Assembly (NCBI RefSeq): GCF_034387475.1
Contig: NZ_JAXCIL010000002.1
Coordinates: 1,116,001-1,180,000 of the forward strand
From: Pseudomonas sp. Teo4
GTDB taxonomy: Bacteria; Pseudomonadota; Gammaproteobacteria; Pseudomonadales; Pseudomonadaceae
Length of the DNA: 64,000 bases
Direction of reading: 5' to 3'
Shown piece by piece: positions 26,855 to 35,908 of the stretch; the stretch's first letter is position 1, and the number at the start of each line of letters is the position of its first letter. Position numbers and translations under genes: made by a program. Under the pieces are notes generated by a model. The model did no database searches, was not told where the DNA came from, and saw only the letters and a list, made by a program, of their open reading frames with translations.

Positions 26855-27499
26855 TCAGGACAGCTTACGTTGCGGGGCCTTGTGCACCATGGTGTAGGCG
26901 TAATCAACACCCATGCCGTACGCACCGCTGTGCTCCAGAACCAGGTCCATCACGGGCTGGTAGGTGTCCTTGTGCGCCCAGTCACGTTGGTACTCGAGCA
27001 GAACTTGCTGCCAGGTCACCGGGATCGCGCCAGCTTGAATCATGCGCTGCACGGCCATGTCGTGGGCTTCCTGAGTGGTGCCACCGGAAGCGTCGGTAAC
27101 GATGTACACCTCGTAGCCGGCTTCCATGGCTTCCAGTGCCGGGAAGGTCAGGCAGACCTCGGTCCACAGTGCCGCCATGATCAGTTTCTTGCGGCCGGTG
27201 GCCTTCACCGCTTCGACCAGCTTGGCGTCTTCCCAGCTGTTCATCGAAGAGCGCTCGATCGGCTGGGCGCCTGGGTTGACCGCCAGCAGCTCTGGCCAGA
27301 TGTAGCCGCTGAAACTCTCGGTTTCGACCGAGGTGTAAATGGTCGGCACGTTGAAGATCTTGGCCGCCTTGGCCAGGCCAACGGTGTTGTTCTTCAGCGT
27401 CTGGCGGTCGATCGATTGAACGCCGAAAGCCATTTGCGGCTGATGGTCGATCAGGATCAGGGCGGAGTTGGTTGGGTTCAGCAGTTCGCGTTTGGACAT
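26855..27499 (-). CDS. Isochorismatase-like (YcaC-type) cysteine hydrolase
   Basis: This is a 214-residue member of the isochorismatase-like fold. Catalytic Asp is in SALILIDHQPQMAFG, Lys in TGRKKLIMAALWTEVCLTFPAL and the nucleophile Cys in TEVCLTF. The substrate is not predictable; YcaC homologues are induced by stress. ATG 27499 has GAAGAG nine bases upstream. It heads the pair with the downstream DoxX gene. Confidence 0.88.
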   Translation of the reverse strand: MSKRELLNPTNSALILIDHQPQMAFGVQSIDRQTLKNNTVGLAKAAKIFNVPTIYTSVETESFSGYIWPELLAVNPGAQPIERSSMNSWEDAKLVEAVKATGRKKLIMAALWTEVCLTFPALEAMEAGYEVYIVTDASGGTTQEAHDMAVQRMIQAGAIPVTWQQVLLEYQRDWAHKDTYQPVMDLVLEHSGAYGMGVDYAYTMVHKAPQRKLS

Positions 27500-27853
27500 G
27501 GTCGTCATCTCTTCAGAATGGTTGAAAGCATTGGGTTTCAAGTAAGTCACCGCGCGGTGCCGGTGGCGTTGTCTGCGGTATGGGGGCCATTCTGAAGTTG
27601 GAAATGAATCAAGACAATTAGGCAAAAACGGGAATGATTGTCCCTAAAATTGAGACAGACTTTGGGCTTAACTTGCCTTGGATGAATTTAGGAGAAGGCC
27701 TTTGGTGTGACCAGTGATCGCGCCGGATCAGCGCGGCCCCGTTGAGTTTGCCGACGGAGCGCAGCGGTAATCCGTGAAACCCGCTCTATAGTCAATAACG
27801 CGGTGAAGGCAGTGAGCCATGCCGTGATTGTCGACGACAGGGAGGTCTTGTTC
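27500..27853. other. Intergenic region between divergent genes
   Basis: This holds the promoters of the hydrolase (left) and the DUF2182 gene (right, with GGGAGG before its ATG). An upstream GTG-initiated extension of the DUF2182 frame has no support. No other gene is visible. Confidence 0.5.
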
Positions 27854-28606
27854 ATGGCCAGCACCTACCGCTCTCGCCCGCCACTGGCGGCATGGGCTCG
27901 CGAAAACTGTCAGGACCCTCTCAAGTGCGCCTTATGGGCTGTCAGCCTGGCCGCCTTCGCCCTGATGGCTTTCAGCAACGACATCCACGACGAACTCGAA
28001 TCCTTCTGCATCAGCGGCTCGCCATCGATGCTCGCCGAAGGCTGGGTTTACGTGCGTCTCTACTATTCCACCCTGGACGTCATCGCATTCGCCGCTGCCA
28101 TGGGCCTCATGCTGATTGCAATGATGCTGCCAGCGCTTCAGGGGCCTTTGCGACATCTCTGGGTGCGGTCACGTCTTCACCAACGGGGACCGGCCGTAGT
28201 GCTGTTTCTGATGGGGTACTTTTGCGTATGGCTGTTGGGCTGCCTGGCACTGCTGACGCTGGCACTGCTGCTGATTTCCTTTACCGGCTCACAGCTGATG
28301 GCAGGGCTCCTGGCGTTGGCGACGGCGGTGGGTTGGCAGTTCAGCGGCGTGAAAACTCGTTCCCTGACGCGCTGCCATCTGCACGTCAATCCAAGAAAAA
28401 CGGGGCTGCTGGAGAGGGTGGGGCCGGTGGCCTCAGGTGCCTTGCATGGCCTGTGGTGCTTCACCACCTGCTGGCCATTGATGCTTATCGCATTTTGTCT
28501 GCCATCCATCCACCTGCCGGTGATGGTTGTCGGCGCAATCTTCATCGCCTATGAGCGCGGCGACCGAAAAACAGCTTCGGCCGCCGCGCCAGCGGCAGAT
28601 CAGTAA
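27854..28606 (+). CDS. DUF2182 metal-binding integral membrane protein
   Basis: This is a 250-residue protein with about seven helices. DUF2182 hallmarks are MGLMLIAMMLPAL, FLMGYFCVWLLG, the loop CHLHVNPRK and the Cys-rich GLWCFTTCWPLMLIAFCLP. The family is annotated as predicted metal-binding but has no proven role. ATG 27854 follows GGGAGG. Its stop overlaps the stop of the convergent tyrosinase gene by three bases, a conspicuous pairing with a copper enzyme. Confidence 0.82.
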   Translation: MASTYRSRPPLAAWARENCQDPLKCALWAVSLAAFALMAFSNDIHDELESFCISGSPSMLAEGWVYVRLYYSTLDVIAFAAAMGLMLIAMMLPALQGPLRHLWVRSRLHQRGPAVVLFLMGYFCVWLLGCLALLTLALLLISFTGSQLMAGLLALATAVGWQFSGVKTRSLTRCHLHVNPRKTGLLERVGPVASGALHGLWCFTTCWPLMLIAFCLPSIHLPVMVVGAIFIAYERGDRKTASAAAPAADQ

Positions 28607-30207
28607 GTCTCCAGCTTGAAGGGTGCGTCAGTTGCCGCCGCGGCGCCGGTGCTGAGCAGACGCGCTGCCTCTGGCCGCGTCAGAACCGTGTCACGGGTCT
28701 GCACTTCGACCTCGATCGTGCTCTCGTCAATTGCCGAACTATCGGCATTGAGCGGCAGCTTGAACGTGGCCGTGGCTTCCAGGTGGGTCTGGCAGTTCAT
28801 GCACCCCTCGACGTGCCAACGGCTCAGGATCGGCCGGGTGCCCAGGTACTCACGCTTGCCGTCCACCTTCGCATAGGCGCTGATCAGAAACGACCCGCGA
28901 ATTTTCCCACGGTTGATTCGGCTGACTCGCAGCGTCTTGCCGGACGGTTGGATTGCCTCGGCCTTGAACAGCAACGGGTGAGCCGGTTGGGCATAGGCAT
29001 CGAGTGAGCCTTTGCCATAGACGTAGCCCAGTTGCTTCTCGATGTTGATGCAGTCCTTGGTGGTAAAGGGCGTGCCATCGGCCTTCCTGAACGGATCCAA
29101 CGAGGTGTCCAGGCTCAGGATGGCATTGGGGTCCAGGCCTGCGGCACCTGCCGGGGGCTGCACACCATCGGGCTTGTAGTAGCTGGCGCCCGGGTCGCTG
29201 GCGTCGATGCTGAATTCATCGGTGGTGCCTTGCCGACGTTGCCAGGTCCAGAACACATAGTCGATGAAGCAGTGGTGGAAGAAGAAAATCGGGTCCAGCC
29301 CGGCCGTTTCGTTCTCGCCCATGTCGCCGTTGGCCCCAGGAATCGCCGAACTGTCTCCCTGACCGGGGTAGTCGAAACCACCGACCGCCAGGTGCATGAA
29401 GTTGTGGGGCTCTTCCAGGGATACGTAGTGGGTGCCGGCTGGCGCGGTCTTGTTTTTCTCGCCGGCCGAGGTGGTATTGGAGAACAACGTGTAAGTCGGG
29501 GCGTCGAGGCAGTTTTCAAAGCGACTGAACACCTCGCCACGCCACTTGCCACCGATCTTGATCTTGCCGCTCAGCCAGGTGCTGATGTTGTCATTGAGGT
29601 AGCCGACATTCTTGACCGGGTCCGGAAAGCGCTTGTTGTGCGCATCGGTCGCCAGGCTATCGGCCTCGGTGCCCACCAGTCCGGACAGCGGATAGCGCAC
29701 GGTCTCGTACCCCTCCGGCTTGCTGTAGACGATGGGGGTGCCCGTGACTTCATCGGTGATGGCCTGTGGGAACACGAATGAGCGCAACGGGTTTTCGATC
29801 TTCTGGCCGTCGAGCACGAAATACTCTTGTGTCAGGGCCGAAGGAATTCCTTTTTCCCGTGATTCATCACTGCATTCATCCCAGAACGGCAAGGTGACGT
29901 TTTCACATTTCGGGATGCTGCGCAGTGCCTCTTCCAGACGCCAGAGATAAGCGCGATGCCAGCTTGGGAAAAGCACCGTTCCGTGCTGGCAGTAGCCACC
30001 CCACCAGTTGGGGTCGGTCTTGCCCTTGTCACGGAACGGCTCGCCATGCAGGCCACCGAGGGTGAAGAAGGAATTGGGGTGGTTGGCGGGAAGATCCTTG
30101 ATGCCCTTCCAGGCACGCATCAGCGCTTCAAGTTCTTCTTTCTTGCCATGGTCGTAGTCGTACTGGATATCACTGAGGGAACGGCGTACACGCGGGGCGG
30201 ATGACAT
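28600..30207 (-). CDS. Tyrosinase (type 3 copper oxidase)
   Basis: This is a 535-residue enzyme that would oxidise monophenols and o-diphenols to o-quinones. CuA ligands lie in LGGLHGEPF and CQHGTVLFPSWHRAYLWRLEE. CuB ligands lie in EEPHNFMHLAVGG and FFHHCFIDYVFWTWQ. The C-terminal third (about 380-535) is beta-rich and holds CMNCQTHLEATATF. No signal peptide is seen, so it is probably cytoplasmic. AAGGAGG precedes ATG 30207. No small caddie gene is adjacent on its strand; DUF2182 is the neighbour. Confidence 0.93.
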   Translation of the reverse strand: MSSAPRVRRSLSDIQYDYDHGKKEELEALMRAWKGIKDLPANHPNSFFTLGGLHGEPFRDKGKTDPNWWGGYCQHGTVLFPSWHRAYLWRLEEALRSIPKCENVTLPFWDECSDESREKGIPSALTQEYFVLDGQKIENPLRSFVFPQAITDEVTGTPIVYSKPEGYETVRYPLSGLVGTEADSLATDAHNKRFPDPVKNVGYLNDNISTWLSGKIKIGGKWRGEVFSRFENCLDAPTYTLFSNTTSAGEKNKTAPAGTHYVSLEEPHNFMHLAVGGFDYPGQGDSSAIPGANGDMGENETAGLDPIFFFHHCFIDYVFWTWQRRQGTTDEFSIDASDPGASYYKPDGVQPPAGAAGLDPNAILSLDTSLDPFRKADGTPFTTKDCINIEKQLGYVYGKGSLDAYAQPAHPLLFKAEAIQPSGKTLRVSRINRGKIRGSFLISAYAKVDGKREYLGTRPILSRWHVEGCMNCQTHLEATATFKLPLNADSSAIDESTIEVEVQTRDTVLTRPEAARLLSTGAAAATDAPFKLETY

Positions 30208-30683
30208 GGTGAACCTCCTTGTTGCCAGTGGTCCCGAGTAGCTCGGGGGGTACAGCTCCATCGTCCAGCATATCCGCGAACCAAAAATCTGCCTGGGCGG
30301 GCGCCAAACGGTTGGTCATCCTTGCAACCGCCTGGCATTGGGCCTCGTGGGAGGGTCAGATCTGCATCGCCATCCTGTCTACATTCATTGGTGTTGGGAT
30401 TGGCGATGACCTTTGAACGGTACCGGGCTTCGCAGGGTATTTAACAATAAATATGAATTACACCCACAGCCAGACTTCCATCAGTTCGGTTATCTCATCG
30501 GCTCTTAAAGTTTTCAGGTCATAACTATAAGTATTTGAAAGGAAAATAAAAGTTTAAACAATAAATGTTTCCTACGTGGCGACAAGAATTTTCCCACAGT
30601 TATTTGCCGTATTTCCTCTATGGATTTGTACTAGGATCCGCTTTTCATGCGAATTATCCAACATTTATTCAAAGAGAGATTAT
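30208..30683. other. Intergenic region with lpd 3'-end debris and AT-rich leader
   Basis: The left half holds pieces of the lpd 3' end (30356-30413, perhaps also 30328-30355). From about 30420 to 30683 the DNA is strongly AT-rich and leads into the four-gene cluster, with AAAGAGAGA before its first ATG. No other gene is seen. Confidence 0.7.
30356..30413 (-). pseudogene. Decayed fragment of an lpd 3' end
   Basis: Bases 30356-30388 match 34508-34540 at 30 of 33 positions, including TCAGATCTGCATCGCCATCC without mismatch. Bases 30386-30413 match 34690-34717 at about 24 of 28. The two blocks are in lpd order with some 150 bp deleted between ACATTCAT-type short repeats. On the minus strand the remnant still reads MNVDRMAMQI then stop, against MNVDGMAMQI in intact lpd. 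A weaker third block (30328-30355) resembles 34541-34570. Confidence 0.85.
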
Positions 30684-31478
30684 ATGAAAAATATACATGT
30701 GCTCGGTGCGGGCCATATGGGTGGTGCGATCTTGCGTGCTCTCAAAAAAAATCAAAACAGTTCCGCGAACTTACGGGTTATTGAGACAGACTCGCAACGC
30801 GCTCGGAGTTGGCAAAAACTTGGCTACAAGGTTGCGCCGAAATTAGATGAACTCAGCTCGGAAGACTGCGTGGTATTGGCTGTACCACCTCAACAGTTCG
30901 AGAACGCATTGACCCTAAACCCTGCGCTTACCAGGCATTGCGGGCCGGTTATTTCGGTCATGGCAGGTATCACTCATGCCTCCTTGGTGCGATTTTTGGG
31001 GCATGACGCCATCGTCCGAGCCATTCCAAACACGCCTTCCGAGGTGTCGCAGGGCGTGACGATGTACTACGCACCGCAAAGCTCGAGTAGTGCCTTGCTT
31101 GAAGAAGCCCGGCAGATTTTCGATGCGATCGGTATTTCGCTGCGGGTCGAGGAGGAATGGCAGATTGATACAGGCACAGCATTGGCCGGCGGTGGCCCGG
31201 CGTTGGTTGCCTATTTCGCCGAAGCCCTGCAGGACTATGGTCTTCGTAGCGGCTTGGATCGTGAACAAGCGGCACTGGTTGCCTTGCAATTACTCAGCGG
31301 GACCACAGCGCTTATCCGTGCTCAAGGAAAGACCGTCAGCCAGATCTGCCAAGAGGTCCAGACGCCTGGCGGCACTACCGAACATGCAATCGGCACACTT
31401 GCCAATGCAGGTTTCAAAGGGCTGATCGGCAGCGCGCTGGACTCGGCTGCCAGACGCTCGATGCAACTTGGCCAGTAG
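30684..31478 (+). CDS. Pyrroline-5-carboxylate reductase-like protein
   Basis: This is a 264-residue ProC-family reductase, NAD(P)H-dependent and acting on cyclic imines. The Rossmann motif is IHVLGAGHMGGAILRAL; GTALAGGGPALVAYFAEAL and the signature TPGGTTEHAIGTLANAGF are present. It uses less GC-rich codons than its neighbours. It is first of four co-directional genes, 15 bp before the methyltransferase ATG. Housekeeping proline synthesis is unlikely in this setting; a dedicated imine reduction is inferred. Confidence 0.85.
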   Translation: MKNIHVLGAGHMGGAILRALKKNQNSSANLRVIETDSQRARSWQKLGYKVAPKLDELSSEDCVVLAVPPQQFENALTLNPALTRHCGPVISVMAGITHASLVRFLGHDAIVRAIPNTPSEVSQGVTMYYAPQSSSSALLEEARQIFDAIGISLRVEEEWQIDTGTALAGGGPALVAYFAEALQDYGLRSGLDREQAALVALQLLSGTTALIRAQGKTVSQICQEVQTPGGTTEHAIGTLANAGFKGLIGSALDSAARRSMQLGQ

Positions 31479-31493
31479 TCGGTGGAGGCCAAC

Positions 31494-32348
31494 ATGATTA
31501 TCCAATCTGAATCAGGACGGCATGCCACTGCCGGCTGCGAACAGCCGAAAAACGATGTCTACGCGCTGTACTTTGGCATGGGGCAACGGATTAGTTTGAT
31601 CGATGATCCACGGGTATTCAGGGTCAGTCCAGCCGGCGAGGCATTTGCTGAACTGATCACAAGACGCTTTGGCGGGCGTCATCGTGATGCGCGATTCCTC
31701 GACTTGGGCACGGGTAGTGGAGTCCATGCCATATTGCTGCGCCAACTGGGTATGCGAAATGTCACCGCGAGCGATATTTCGCAGAAAGCCGTGGAGACGG
31801 CCAGGGCCAATGAGTTGCTTAACATGGGCGAACCTCGAATCGAATTCGTCCACGGCGACTTGTTCGACGCTGTTCTGCCGGGGGAGGGCTTCGATGTAAT
31901 TCTATTTAACCCTCCGGGGTGGCAGACACCGTCGGCGACATTCATTAGCGCCCTGCAGAAAAGTACGGTAGCCGAAGGGCTGGCGTTGGAGACAATGTTC
32001 TATGGCGAGCAAACTCTGCGACAGTTTTTCCGGGAGGCCCCGCGTTACTTAAAGCCTGGGGGTAAGCTTATTGTTGGGCTCAACTCGTTAGTCGGCATAG
32101 CTGATGTGATGCGCGACCTGTATCAGATGCACGAGGGCTGTCTGCATATCGACTGGTCATTGCTCGACCGCCAAGAGTTCCCACTGCTGCTCTACACCGA
32201 GCAATGGCAGGCGCTGCGCCCCTTGCTGAACGAGGAGGTCGCACGATGGACCAGCCAAGGCCGGGCACATTGTCGCTTCACCGCAGAAGGTGAGTTGTTC
32301 TGGTCCTATGAGGTCATCGAGTTCTCCTTCAAGCCTCTCAAAGGGTGA
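31494..32348 (+). CDS. SAM-dependent methyltransferase, PrmC/HemK-like
   Basis: This is a 284-residue class I methyltransferase. Motif I is ARFLDLGTGSGVHAILLRQLG; the catalytic-type motif DVILFNPPGWQTPS is NPPx as in enzymes that methylate amide or amine nitrogen. GGAGG lies five bases before ATG 31494; an upstream GTG is rejected. Its stop overlaps the transporter start (ATGA-type). The substrate is unknown; small molecule or protein cannot be told apart from sequence. Confidence 0.82.
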   Translation: MIIQSESGRHATAGCEQPKNDVYALYFGMGQRISLIDDPRVFRVSPAGEAFAELITRRFGGRHRDARFLDLGTGSGVHAILLRQLGMRNVTASDISQKAVETARANELLNMGEPRIEFVHGDLFDAVLPGEGFDVILFNPPGWQTPSATFISALQKSTVAEGLALETMFYGEQTLRQFFREAPRYLKPGGKLIVGLNSLVGIADVMRDLYQMHEGCLHIDWSLLDRQEFPLLLYTEQWQALRPLLNEEVARWTSQGRAHCRFTAEGELFWSYEVIEFSFKPLKG

Positions 32349-33232
32349 TGGCCATGTCTTCCAGATCTTTTTCCACGGTCGCAGGTTTGTCGGCCGCGTT
32401 GGTCTCCAATTGTTTGCTAGGCCTTTCGTCGCTGTATTGGAAGGCCCTCGGTGTGCTGCCTGCGTTAGTCTTGCTGGGATATCGGGTGTTGATTTCGCTG
32501 TTGTGCGTCACCTTGGTATTGGCGTTGCGCCGTGAACTGGCGCCGGTGCTGCGAGGACTAACCCGACGTGACTTGCTGCTGCATGGGGCGGCTGCGTTGT
32601 TCGTGGCCGTGAATTGGGGCACGTTCATATGGGCCTCCATCCATGGTCACGTACTGGAAAGCGGAATGGGTTACCTGATCGCGCCAGTACTGGTCATCGG
32701 TCTAGGTATTCTGCTCTACCGTGAACGGCTGTCGCTGCGACGGGGTCTGGCGTTGGCGTTGGTGGTGGGAAGCGTGCTGTACCTGATCATCGACGCAGGT
32801 AGCCTCGACAACAGAGTCTTCCTGGCAATCGGTATTACCTGGGGCGGGTATGCCTGGCTGAAGAAATTGGCGCGACTATCTCCGTGGTCTGGGCTTTTTA
32901 TTGAATCTTTGGTGCTGGGTGTGTTGTCAGTTCCGTTGATCCTGTTGTTCGACGCGCCGATGCAGGACATCACAGTGCTCGGAGCTGCTGATATGAGCCT
33001 GCTGTTGCTGTGCGGAGTGGTTTCGCTGTTGCCGCTGGCGCTGTTCTCGTTTGCGACGCGACACCTGCCGTTGAGTGTCATGGGCCTGATGCAGTTTGTC
33101 CTGCCTTTGACTCAGTTCTGTCTTGCCCTGGGCTTCTATGGTCAAGCCCCATCCCCGGGTACTTTGTTGGCGTTTTCGCTGATTGCGCTCGCCATGTTGC
33201 TGGTGATCCTCGAACCCATGCTCAAACCCTGA
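32348..33232 (+). CDS. RarD/EamA-type drug-metabolite transporter
   Basis: This is a 294-residue protein with ten membrane helices. The RarD-like pattern is visible in SNCLLGLSSLYWKALG, LLHGAAALFVAVNWGTFIWA and GHVLESGMGYLIAPVLVIGLG. Such proteins export or import amino acids and small metabolites. Start ATG 32348 overlaps the methyltransferase stop, so the two are translationally coupled. It would carry the product of the neighbouring enzymes (inference). Confidence 0.87.
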   Translation: MAMSSRSFSTVAGLSAALVSNCLLGLSSLYWKALGVLPALVLLGYRVLISLLCVTLVLALRRELAPVLRGLTRRDLLLHGAAALFVAVNWGTFIWASIHGHVLESGMGYLIAPVLVIGLGILLYRERLSLRRGLALALVVGSVLYLIIDAGSLDNRVFLAIGITWGGYAWLKKLARLSPWSGLFIESLVLGVLSVPLILLFDAPMQDITVLGAADMSLLLLCGVVSLLPLALFSFATRHLPLSVMGLMQFVLPLTQFCLALGFYGQAPSPGTLLAFSLIALAMLLVILEPMLKP

Positions 33233-33261
33233 TCGAACAGCACAAGATGGAGTTGTTGAAG

Positions 33262-34410
33262 ATGCTTCATACCTATAGTGCTGTGGTTGTTGGGCTGGGC
33301 ATTCTTGGTAGCGCCACGCTGTGGAGGTTGTCACAACAACAATCCTCCGTGCTGGGCCTGGAGGCTAGCGGGCCGATCAATTTGCAGGGTAGTTCCTACG
33401 GAGGCTCGCGCATCTTTCGCCAAGCTTATTGGGAAGGCGAGGACTACCTCCCTTTACTGAACAAGGCCGAGCGCGGCTGGCACGAGTTGCAGGCCAGTTG
33501 TCATCGGACATTGCTCCACCAAAGTGGAGGCCTTTTCATTGGGCCTGCTTGCTCGGGGGTGGTATCTGGCAGTGTGGCCACTGCCCGAGCCGGTGATATA
33601 GCTCATCGGCGCCTGACCGCTGTGCAAGCTAGCGGAGAGTTTCCGATGTTCCAGATTGGCGGGCAGATGGAAGGCTTATTCGAGGAAGGGGCGTTCACCA
33701 TAGCCGCCGACGACGCACGGCTGCAGATGCACAACCAAGCGGTAGCCAACGGCGCCGAGCTGCGCTTCGGTAGCCAGTTGCAGGAGATCACCCGTATCAA
33801 GGATGGCCTATATCTTCGCCTTGCCAATGGCCAGGTGCTTCATACCCGAAAGTTGGTATTGGCGACAGGCGCAGGCTTGGGCGGAACGTTGATTCCTGAC
33901 CTTGTCGGCCTTGTGCGTTCATGCAGCGTGCCAGTCTATTGGTGTGCTTTCAAGCCCGGTAAAGAGTCATGCTTTACCGACTTTCCAGCGTTTCTTTACG
34001 AACTCGAAGACGGTCGTCTGCTGTATGGCACGCCGCAGATCGATAACGCCGAGCCGGGAATCAAGATCGGCTTTCACAACCACCAGCAGGTGCCTTTGGA
34101 TCTCGAAACGCAATTGCAACGGGTACCCGAGGTGCTCATTGATGAAATGACTGCTTGTGTTGAGCAGGTGCTCCCAGATCTAGTTGCCAGGCCTTATGCT
34201 TCGCGCAAGTGCGTGTACACACTTACTCCGGACGAGGCCTTCGTGCTGGGCGAATCGAAGGAGTTGCCGGGAGTGTTCTACGCTTCGGCATGCTCTGGCC
34301 ACGGCTTCAAGTTCGCCCCGGCGCTGGGAGAGTGCTTGGCTAAAGCGGTAGCCGGCCAAGCGTTGGAGGATTTGGTACCAAAATTTACCCGAGAGCGATT
34401 TGCCTTTTAG
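33262..34410 (+). CDS. FAD-dependent amine/amino-acid oxidase, MSOX/SolA family
   Basis: This is a 382-residue flavoprotein. The FAD motif is AVVVGLGILGSATLWRL; SSYGGSRIFRQAYWEGEDYLPLL is the MSOX-type active-site region. KCVYTLTPDEAFVLGE carries the Cys that binds FAD covalently in monomeric sarcosine oxidase and N-methyltryptophan oxidase. GGAG lies nine bases before ATG 33262; ATG 33247 is possible. Family members oxidise N-methyl or cyclic secondary amino acids to imines. It is last in the four-gene cluster. Confidence 0.85.
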   Translation: MLHTYSAVVVGLGILGSATLWRLSQQQSSVLGLEASGPINLQGSSYGGSRIFRQAYWEGEDYLPLLNKAERGWHELQASCHRTLLHQSGGLFIGPACSGVVSGSVATARAGDIAHRRLTAVQASGEFPMFQIGGQMEGLFEEGAFTIAADDARLQMHNQAVANGAELRFGSQLQEITRIKDGLYLRLANGQVLHTRKLVLATGAGLGGTLIPDLVGLVRSCSVPVYWCAFKPGKESCFTDFPAFLYELEDGRLLYGTPQIDNAEPGIKIGFHNHQQVPLDLETQLQRVPEVLIDEMTACVEQVLPDLVARPYASRKCVYTLTPDEAFVLGESKELPGVFYASACSGHGFKFAPALGECLAKAVAGQALEDLVPKFTRERFAF

Positions 34411-34507: not shown

Positions 34508-35908
34508 TCAGATCTGCATCGCCATCCCATCCACATTCATCGCCGCCTGGCGCAAGGCCTCGGAGCGGGTCGGGTGTGGGTGGCAGGTGAGGGCGATGTC
34601 TTCGGCCGAGGCTGAGAACTCCATGGCGACACAGAATTCGCCGATCATCTCGCTGACACTCGGGCCGACCAGATGAACGCCCAGCACTTCATCAGTGTTG
34701 GCATCGGCGATGACCTTGGCGAAGCCTTCGGTCTCGTGGTTGATCTTGGCTCGGCTGTTGGCGGTGAAGGGGAACTTGCCGACCTTGTAGGCACGGCCCT
34801 CGGCCTTGAGCTGCTCCTCGGTCTTGCCGACGCTGGCCAGTTCGGGGCGGGTGTAGATCACGCCTGGGATCAGGTTGTAGTTGACCTCATGCGGCTTGCC
34901 GGCGATTCGCTCGATGCACGCAACCGCTTCGTCTTCGGCTTTGTGCGCCAGCATCGGGCCGGAGGTGACGTCGCCGATGACCCAGACGCCGGGCACCGAA
35001 GTACGATGGTGCTGGTTGTCGAGCATGCCGCGCTTGTCGGTTTCCAGGCCCACGCTTTCCAGGTTCAGGCCCTTGGTATAAGGACGGCGGCCGATGGCGA
35101 CCAGTACGTAATCGGCTTGCAACGTTTCGGCGGCACCACCAGCGGCAGGCTCTAGGGTGAGGCTGACGCCGTCGGCCGAGGCGTTGGCCTGGGTAACCTT
35201 GCTGCCCAGCTTGAAGGCCATACCTTGTTTGGCCAGGGCCTTCTGCAGGGTCTTGGCGGTTTCTTCGTCCGTGCCCGGGCAGATGCGGTCGAGGTACTCG
35301 ATGACGGTGACTTGGGCGCCAAGACGTCGCCATACCGAACCCAGTTCCAGGCCGATCACCCCAGCGCCGATCACCACCAGGTGCTTGGGCACCTGTGGCA
35401 GGGCGAGGGCACCAGTGGAGTCGATGATGCGCTGGTTATCGATGGTTACACCGGGCAGCGGAGTCGGCTCGGAGCCGGTGGCGATGACGATGTCCTTGGC
35501 TTGCAGTGTGGTTTCGCTGCCGTCTTCTGCCTTGACGATAACCTTGCCTACGCCATCCAGACGGCCCCAACCTTTGACCCAGTCGACCTTGTTCTTGCGG
35601 AACAGGTATTCGATGCCCTTGGTCAGGCCGGTCACGCTCTCGTCCTTCTGCTTCATCATCTGGGCAAGATTGAGGGTGGGTTTCACCTCGATACCAAGGT
35701 GCGCGAACTCGTCGCCGCTGGCGGCTTCGTAAAGTTCAGAGGCATGCAGCAGCGCCTTGGATGGCATGCAGCCAACATTCAGGCAGGTGCCGCCCAAGGT
35801 CGAGCGGCCTTCCACGCAGGCCACGCTCATGCCCAGCTGACCGGCACGGATCGCCGCGTTGTAGCCGCCGGGGCCGCCGCCGATGATCACTACGTCGTAG
35901 GATTTCAT
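34508..35908 (-). CDS. lpd: Dihydrolipoyl dehydrogenase
   Basis: This 466-residue E3 flavoenzyme reoxidises dihydrolipoamide of 2-oxoacid dehydrogenases or the glycine cleavage system with NAD. The FAD motif is YDVVIIGGGPGGYNAAIRAG, the redox disulfide GGTCLNVGCMPSK, the NAD motif VVIGAGVIGLELGSVW, and the C-terminal HPHPTRSE has the His-Glu pair. It stands alone, away from any E1/E2 operon, as the third P. putida Lpd does. A decayed copy of its 3' end lies at 30356-30413. Confidence 0.95.
   Translation of the reverse strand: MKSYDVVIIGGGPGGYNAAIRAGQLGMSVACVEGRSTLGGTCLNVGCMPSKALLHASELYEAASGDEFAHLGIEVKPTLNLAQMMKQKDESVTGLTKGIEYLFRKNKVDWVKGWGRLDGVGKVIVKAEDGSETTLQAKDIVIATGSEPTPLPGVTIDNQRIIDSTGALALPQVPKHLVVIGAGVIGLELGSVWRRLGAQVTVIEYLDRICPGTDEETAKTLQKALAKQGMAFKLGSKVTQANASADGVSLTLEPAAGGAAETLQADYVLVAIGRRPYTKGLNLESVGLETDKRGMLDNQHHRTSVPGVWVIGDVTSGPMLAHKAEDEAVACIERIAGKPHEVNYNLIPGVIYTRPELASVGKTEEQLKAEGRAYKVGKFPFTANSRAKINHETEGFAKVIADANTDEVLGVHLVGPSVSEMIGEFCVAMEFSASAEDIALTCHPHPTRSEALRQAAMNVDGMAMQI

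Follow-up and report, generated by a model that had tools for sequence, protein, structure and literature searches.

A laterally mobile four-gene cassette of Pseudomonas and distant bacteria, probably for a small exported amino-acid derivative

What would a bacterium make with a ProC-like reductase, a methyltransferase, a carrier and a sarcosine-oxidase-like flavoenzyme encoded side by side? The question is raised by four genes in the 6.5 Mb genome of Pseudomonas sp. Teo4, which lie in the 64,000-nucleotide stretch that we analysed (G000:C2:1116001-1180000, hereafter the window, to which coordinates without a locus label refer). A preliminary description made from the sequence alone had placed them as four adjacent open reading frames (ORFs), and the ORF coordinates agree with the order, strand and spacing it gave: a 15 bp gap between the proC-like and methyltransferase genes, a 1-base overlap between the methyltransferase and RarD-like genes and a 29 bp gap between the RarD-like and oxidase genes. 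We think it probable that this cassette is a laterally mobile, self-contained biosynthetic unit for a small exported amino-acid derivative. Its genes are as follows.

30684..31478, + strand: cassette gene 1, proC-like imine (imino-acid) reductase (P5CR_dimer and TIGR00112)
31494..32348, + strand: class I S-adenosylmethionine (SAM) methyltransferase of the NPP type (FNPPGW, MTS / PrmC-like), a predicted N-methyltransferase
32348..33232, + strand: RarD-like EamA/DMT transporter by family match, a predicted exporter (the direction is a prediction)
33262..34410, + strand: monomeric sarcosine oxidase / N-methyl amino acid oxidase-like flavoenzyme (DAO family, alignment to the monomeric sarcosine oxidase MSOX)

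Recurrence of the four genes

Pfam and NCBIfam profile searches, on which the family assignments rest, back the four families called earlier, and the 'NPPx' motif attributed to the methyltransferase reads FNPPGW. The ProC-like protein of the window scores 201 bits with TIGR00112, above the cut-off of 196.75, and the oxidase, a DAO protein, reaches 276.8 bits with the N-methyl-L-tryptophan oxidase model NF008425, above the cut-off of 257. The carrier matches EamA and stays under the cut-off of the RarD model TIGR00688 (112.1 vs 130.15 bits). The methyltransferase is far under that of the PrmC model TIGR03534 (66.7 vs 199.1 bits), a score on which we rejected the possibility of a PrmC release-factor methyltransferase.

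The preliminary description left the question whether the four genes occur together elsewhere, and they do. At 20 Pseudomonas loci besides the window, proC and the methyltransferase gene are present in 20/20 and the RarD-like and oxidase genes in 19/20, in identical order; at the twentieth (L066) the contig stops after the methyltransferase gene. A single-protein scan of genome contigs found no relative, and an alignment-based scan of named genomes did find loci, 26 in total and partly from the same genomes as the Pseudomonas set. All four families are present in 20 of these 26. Eight of them lie outside Pseudomonas, and four of the eight hold all four genes: Collimonas, Bordetella ansorpii, Streptomyces bambusae and Polyangium fumosum, in which a transposase gene separates proC from the methyltransferase gene. 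A second Streptomyces-group genome (G1252) has all four too. Since other genera and phyla show the same order, with proteins roughly 40-50 % identical, the four genes are a conserved unit, beyond chance. No other family was found around the cassette in more than 4 of the 19 regions compared (one of them from the hglS site described below), not counting antisense shadows of the four genes. In the open PMC subset we found no published description of this set and no named pathway for it, as the preliminary description had supposed; the enzyme families are known and the combination appears new to us.

The methyltransferase family is rare. A methyltransferase query matches 27/298 genomes of the family at E <=1e-10, only 5 of them strongly (E <1e-60), and 21/398 genomes of the genus at E <=1e-25, the window's own genome counted. 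Known carriers included, the numbers are 2/398 genomes for the phylum, 2/295 for the Streptomyces group, 2/150 for the Micromonospora group, 1/250 for the Bordetella order and 2/82 for the Azospirillum group. Some copies are damaged: the oxidase gene is split in L033 and L061 and shortened in L055 and L064, proC is short in L055 and in two pieces in L066, the methyltransferase gene is split in L065, and in L068 proC was not found and the start of the methyltransferase gene is missing. These may be decay or draft errors.

At two Azospirillum loci (L090, L092) part of the cassette is exchanged. Genes for a LuxR, an autoinducer synthase (identified by a scan in L090 and by homology in L092), ProC and the methyltransferase are followed there by heterotetrameric sarcosine oxidase (TSOX, SoxBDAG) genes that replace the RarD-like and MSOX-like genes: a DAO-family SoxB, the SoxA alpha subunit and SoxG, with SoxD recognised by eye. 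Unlike the MSOX-like oxidase, this enzyme has a different architecture, and its alpha subunits retain folate-binding GCV_T domains. A metK gene follows; it is complete in L090, and in L092 the contig ends within it, its start being recognised by eye. The one Azospirillum genome tested (G1023) holds a further TSOX, with a strong SO_alpha_A3 match, and a further metK; its two TSOX are 60 % (beta) and 46 % (alpha) identical, and the cassette TSOX and metK look like dedicated second copies. The LuxR and LuxI type genes stand directly before the operon (L090 5261-7003), an arrangement conserved in the second Azospirillum; we found no published link between Azospirillum quorum sensing and the cassette in the open PMC subset.

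One explanation for such a gene set is a catabolic or detoxifying operon for the uptake and demethylation of N-methyl amino acids, given that MSOX and TSOX are best known from the breakdown of sarcosine. We regard it as very unlikely: the dedicated methyltransferase, together with the LuxI/LuxR pair and metK in Azospirillum, points to synthesis, and a second TSOX is present in the Azospirillum genome tested.

Other variants are looser. In Micromonospora antibiotica the oxidase gene and proC (L104:5531-6316) lie ~12-14 kb from the methyltransferase gene, in a cluster with a TauD dioxygenase, adenylation proteins, an adenylation-carrier fusion, a reductase, an aminotransferase, a thiamine diphosphate enzyme and an MFS carrier. 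A related cluster with the methyltransferase and oxidase is found in G1373. The Micromonospora cluster common to two genomes (L103/L104 and L115/L116) also has a PIG-L deacetylase and an M20 peptidase, and a cytidylyltransferase homologue was scanned in L089. Methylobacterium nodulans pMNOD02 carries proC, the methyltransferase gene and a split oxidase gene; beside this broken cassette stands a gene annotated as isonitrile synthase family (L095 14754-16547), with transposase-like remnants between (by eye).

Lateral movement and the repeats at the borders

The cassette is laterally mobile. Compared with L034, in another Pseudomonas, the window proteins are 0.34 (ProC), 0.40 (methyltransferase) and 0.45 (oxidase) identical, and housekeeping ProC 0.80; compared with Polyangium the values are 0.40, 0.40 and 0.43, and 0.39 for housekeeping ProC. 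The cassette proteins are thus about equally close to both, and housekeeping ProC is not. For L031, among the nearest relatives, they are 0.71, 0.70 and 0.75, and 0.90. Across 21 cassettes the pairwise identities of oxidase, methyltransferase and ProC are correlated (0.85-0.92), as expected if the three move together. The GC content of the cassette is 0.398-0.489 vs 0.598-0.635 in the flanks at 18/20 Pseudomonas loci. It is near the flank values in L031, L051 and the window copy (0.563 vs 0.59-0.60), and 15 % of the 3.7-kb stretches in the window have a GC content as low as that of the window copy.

The window copy is bracketed by direct repeats.

30356..30413, no strand assigned: left direct repeat, a decayed copy of the lpdA 3' end (the reverse strand reads MNVDRMAMQI-stop)
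34508..34717, no strand assigned: right direct repeat, the 3' end of intact lpdA (reads MNVDGMAMQI-stop)

Intact lpdA, recognised by eye, occupies 34508-35908 on the - strand and ends at 34508, and the left repeat is a remnant of the C-terminus of its product. The matching pairs are 30356-30388 with 34508-34540 (33 nt, 91 %) and 30384-30413 with 34688-34717 (30 nt, 87 %). When 1.5-kb flanks were compared, repeat pairs were found to bracket the cassette at 13/30 loci, vs 2/138 shifted control windows of the same sequences, which overlap each other; the two Streptomyces-group matches are marginal (E 0.002 and 0.007), and 17/30 loci have no repeat. Four different Pseudomonas sites carry flank repeats, the lpdA site of the window being the first. 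The second lies just after hglS (36-59 nt, 97-100 %, in 4/10 loci tested there), the third beside a gene that by eye is mechanosensitive-channel-like (L058 and L060, 2/4 loci), and the fourth is shared by L032, L052, L069 and L070 (230-357 nt, 90-95 %, 4/4 loci). At the hglS site the two copies in one genome differ by 0-1 bases, and more differences separate the repeats of L034, L054 and L064 from one another. Two kinds of event would leave such repeats: a circle carrying a stretch of homology could insert by a single crossover, or illegitimate recombination could be assisted by homology.

We also considered hglS as a fifth gene of the pathway and rejected it. It stands beside 11/21 Pseudomonas cassettes, yet is missing from the flank ORFs of the other 10; because of this absence, and because the repeat brackets a cassette starting after hglS in four hglS loci, we take it to be a landing site.

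The repeat of the hglS site (L034 6071-6106 and 10058-10093; L054, L063, L064) recurs after the oxidase gene, and in L054 it holds an inverted CCGGCTC / GAGCCGG that looks like a terminator hairpin (by eye). The hglS operon and the cassette operon may end in the same hairpin. To the left of the window cassette (26855-30261) are genes for a YcaC-like isochorismatase-fold hydrolase, a PpoB2 copper chaperone (27803-28606) and a tyrosinase-domain protein (28600-30261); the adjoining chaperone and tyrosinase at 27803-30261 suggest a polyphenol oxidase pair. In L031 (9319-14876, with families common with L051) a LysR gene stands just upstream of the cassette. The two loci have a divergent set consisting of a radical SAM protein, a phytanoyl-CoA dioxygenase and an FkbO/Hyg5-chorismatase-like protein, possibly a separate small gene cluster of these two close relatives.

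Reductase, methyltransferase and oxidase

Conserved residues were read from alignments in which Pseudomonas proteins were kept if longer than 340 aa (oxidase) or 225 aa (methyltransferase, ProC), the extra Pseudomonas loci of the alignment-based scan being left out. The Pseudomonas rows used are 19/21 methyltransferases (L065 is split and L066 cut by the contig end), 18/21 ProC, 15/21 oxidases and 17/21 carriers; the ORFs omitted are mostly short, split or late-starting.

The preliminary description raised the concern that the cassette reductase might cluster with housekeeping ProC and be the sole copy in its genome. It does neither. A tree of 43 ProC proteins has a branch (support 90/99) that separates the 26 cassette copies from the 17 others, a split found with one change in 91 % of 200 bootstraps; long branches lead to the Azospirillum cassette copy and to one other. 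All 12 carrier genomes checked have another ProC above the TIGR00112 cut-off, the window's own genome having two, and in 5 of the 12 the cassette copy is under that cut-off. On the separate tree group and the second ProC in 12/12 genomes we rejected the reading of cassette proC as the housekeeping gene. Besides its housekeeping-like and cassette copies, the window's own genome has a divergent third ProC (G000:C1:3066837-3067601, L002; 221 bits) on a long branch.

The cassette and housekeeping enzymes share the family, the TIGR00112 score of the window copy and conserved threonines. They differ in the motif GGGPA, present in 26/28 cassette ProC and 0/17 others, in place of SGSGPA, present in 15/17 others and in 2/28 cassette ProC (by elimination the Azospirillum pair). 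T227, G230, T231 and T232 are invariant in the cassette alignment. This threonine and Gly-Thr-Thr have the spacing of Ser231, Thr235 and Thr236 of E. coli ProC, residues named in the docking section of PMC12899673, and for that reason the cassette enzyme probably still acts on an imino acid bearing a carboxylate.

The methyltransferases have FNPPGW in 30/30 and YFG in 27/30. The nearest folds to a predicted model of the window protein (predicted local distance difference test score, pLDDT, 85.4), among the best 50 of 1000 chains aligned, are MJ0882, N6AMT1, RsmC and RlmG, followed by PrmA and PrmC. Since these are families known as N-methyltransferases, we favour N-methylation and predict that the cassette enzyme is an N-methyltransferase.

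A different role would be that of an azetidine-2-carboxylate (AZE) synthase of the AzeJ/VioH kind, the comparison offered in the preliminary description, with an AZE derivative as the product of the cassette. The likeness extends to the class I methyltransferase fold, to DMT transporters in some neighbourhoods and to lateral scatter: passages of PMC11794875 describe a DMT transporter adjoining some azeJ-like genes and the scattering of these genes by lateral transfer. The metK of Azospirillum would supply SAM for such an enzyme. The comparison fails on the signatures. PFNxxGN, the motif of azetidine synthases as printed in PMC11794875, RxxYYxxC and FY within the first 60 residues are each found in 0/30 cassette methyltransferases, and on this count we rejected the assignment. 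AzeJ and VioH (8RYD/8RYE/8RYG) are outside the best 50 of 1000 chains aligned to the model, which we count neither for nor against the comparison. The neighbours named in the passages of PMC11794875 do not include ProC or sarcosine oxidase. E. coli ProC, in the oxidising direction, gave no detectable reaction with AZE (PMC12899673). We give the AZE explanation almost no credence.

The nearest solved relatives of the window oxidase are, in order, sarcosine oxidases, N-methyltryptophan oxidase and NikD. Residue C317 aligns with MSOX residue 315, which we take to be the cysteine that binds flavin adenine dinucleotide (FAD) covalently, and a cysteine is present there in 22/22 oxidases, in agreement with the MSOX-type cysteine described earlier. 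Ten of 12 MSOX sites are identical in 22/22 oxidases: Arg49, Arg52, Tyr55, Tyr254, Lys265, His269, Cys315, Tyr317, His345 and Lys348. In SoxB, as described in passages of PMC12582975, Arg52, Tyr55 and Lys348 anchor the carboxylate, Phe100, Met245 and Tyr254 form the pocket, and Tyr254 hinders cyclic imino acids. The retention of Tyr254 in 22/22 oxidases favours an N-methyl over a ring substrate. The cassette enzyme thus resembles SoxB/SolA (monomeric sarcosine oxidase / N-methyltryptophan oxidase) in these ten sites, carboxylate anchors included, and in passing NF008425. It differs from them at the Phe100 and Met245 positions and in lying within a biosynthetic-looking cassette.

A proposed pathway and its alternatives

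Our best reading, which we hold tentatively, is N-methyl amino acid chemistry plus export. The ProC-like enzyme would reduce the C=N bond of an imino acid, and the NPP-type methyltransferase, with SAM as donor, would methylate the nitrogen of that amino or imino acid. Oxidation of the resulting N-methyl amino acid by the sarcosine-oxidase-type flavoenzyme would give a methylene iminium, and the product would leave the cell through the RarD-like carrier. The substrates, the order of steps, export and the nature of the product are all points that we infer. The preliminary description had proposed an 'N-methylated or cyclic amino acid'; the N-methyl part is the one favoured, short of proof, by the oxidase sites, the exchange for TSOX in Azospirillum and the fold of the methyltransferase.

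Two fates of the iminium are conceivable. The side chain of the substrate itself might trap it and so close a ring, as in the reaction of the fungal enzyme FsqB, an analogy that we consider somewhat unlikely to apply. With lower probability again, it would be hydrolysed or passed to folate, the oxidase turning over surplus product or protecting the producer. FsqC is the N-methyltransferase partner of FsqB, and we know of no ProC-like partner. FsqB, like the cassette oxidase in our proposal, belongs to the sarcosine-oxidase family and is a pathway enzyme with an N-methyl amino acid as its substrate; it closes a ring via the N-methyl carbon of N-methyl-dopa, and N-methyl-tyrosine is only demethylated (passages of PMC6222107). 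Both outcomes therefore have a precedent.

The gene content also recalls that of another kind of operon. Opine metallophore operons, with CntL, CntM and an EamA exporter, likewise combine a SAM-using enzyme, an imine reductase and a DMT exporter in one small operon. They are unlike the cassette in that Pfam and NCBIfam find no nicotianamine-synthase or opine-dehydrogenase family among the four genes. We noted no gene for an outer-membrane receptor next to the window cassette, the flanks not having been scanned for one.

Several points weigh against N-methyl chemistry plus export, or against parts of it. An oxidase that merely removed the methyl group added by the methyltransferase would make the pathway futile unless one of the two fates above holds, and the role of ProC would be loose. 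The support of 90/99 for the ProC group misses the star level of the tree tool, 95/80. RlmO and PH1915 are also among the fold matches of the methyltransferase, and a shared fold does not fix N vs C methylation. In the oxidase, Phe100 (replaced by V, I, L or M; V100 in the window) and Met245 (by L or V) are replaced in 22/22; the pocket may be roomier as a result and the argument from Tyr254 weaker, and wild-type SoxB slowly oxidises L-proline according to passages of PMC12582975. MTOX itself differs from SoxB at Met245 (Thr239; same source), and because of this we read the two positions as a feature of specificity within the family and not as family-defining. The folate domain of TSOX fits demethylation better than ring closure, as it would remove the methylene. 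RarD-like carriers could import rather than export. Finally, several copies are broken, and the trait is thus dispensable.

The changed pocket is also what an alternative explanation would draw on. In that explanation the oxidase would make a P5C (pyrroline-5-carboxylate)-type imine from a proline-like cyclic amino acid, the methyltransferase would C-methylate its enamine tautomer, the ProC-like enzyme would reduce the methylated imine and the RarD-like carrier would export a methylproline-like product. It gives a necessary role to each of the four genes and is the most economical use of them, and the replacement of Phe100 and Met245 may make room for a ring. MrsA, a keto-acid C-methyltransferase, has a comparable role in 3-methylarginine. 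Such keto-acid enzymes, of which SgvM is one, offer an analogous route for primary amino acids (passages of PMC10502145), and in SoxB crystals the C-delta of L-proline is 4.0 A from flavin N5, at the bond that ProC reduces (passages of PMC12582975). Against this stand the Tyr254 kept in all 22 oxidases, the folate domain that the Azospirillum TSOX keeps and the nearness of the methyltransferase model to N-methyltransferase families. On balance we find C-methylation unlikely.

Alternatively, ProC and the methyltransferase alone might make an N-methylated amino acid toxic to competitors, with the exporter and the oxidase, as an N-demethylase, protecting the producer. The cassette would then divide into two synthetic and two protective genes, and the TSOX variant with its folate domain and metK would salvage the methyl group. 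This too appears unlikely, as oxidase and methyltransferase would compete within the cell.

Returning to N-methyl chemistry plus export, it is conceivable that a SAM methyl group placed on an amino acid nitrogen is oxidised by the sarcosine-oxidase-type enzyme so that a new ring forms, that the secreted product is a proline-like antimetabolite or signal, that quorum sensing controls the pathway in some hosts, and that its genes spread as a ~4-kb recombinase-free unit duplicating a piece of host flank. Taken in every detail at once this scheme is improbable. The replacement of MSOX by TSOX plus metK in Azospirillum offers a sharp and testable hint on the chemistry. Given the flank duplications, the cassette is a case of a metabolic unit moving without an evident recombinase. 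Because the cassette is small, widely scattered across the phylogeny and found in Pseudomonas species that can be cultured, a new class of secreted amino-acid derivatives could come to light through it.

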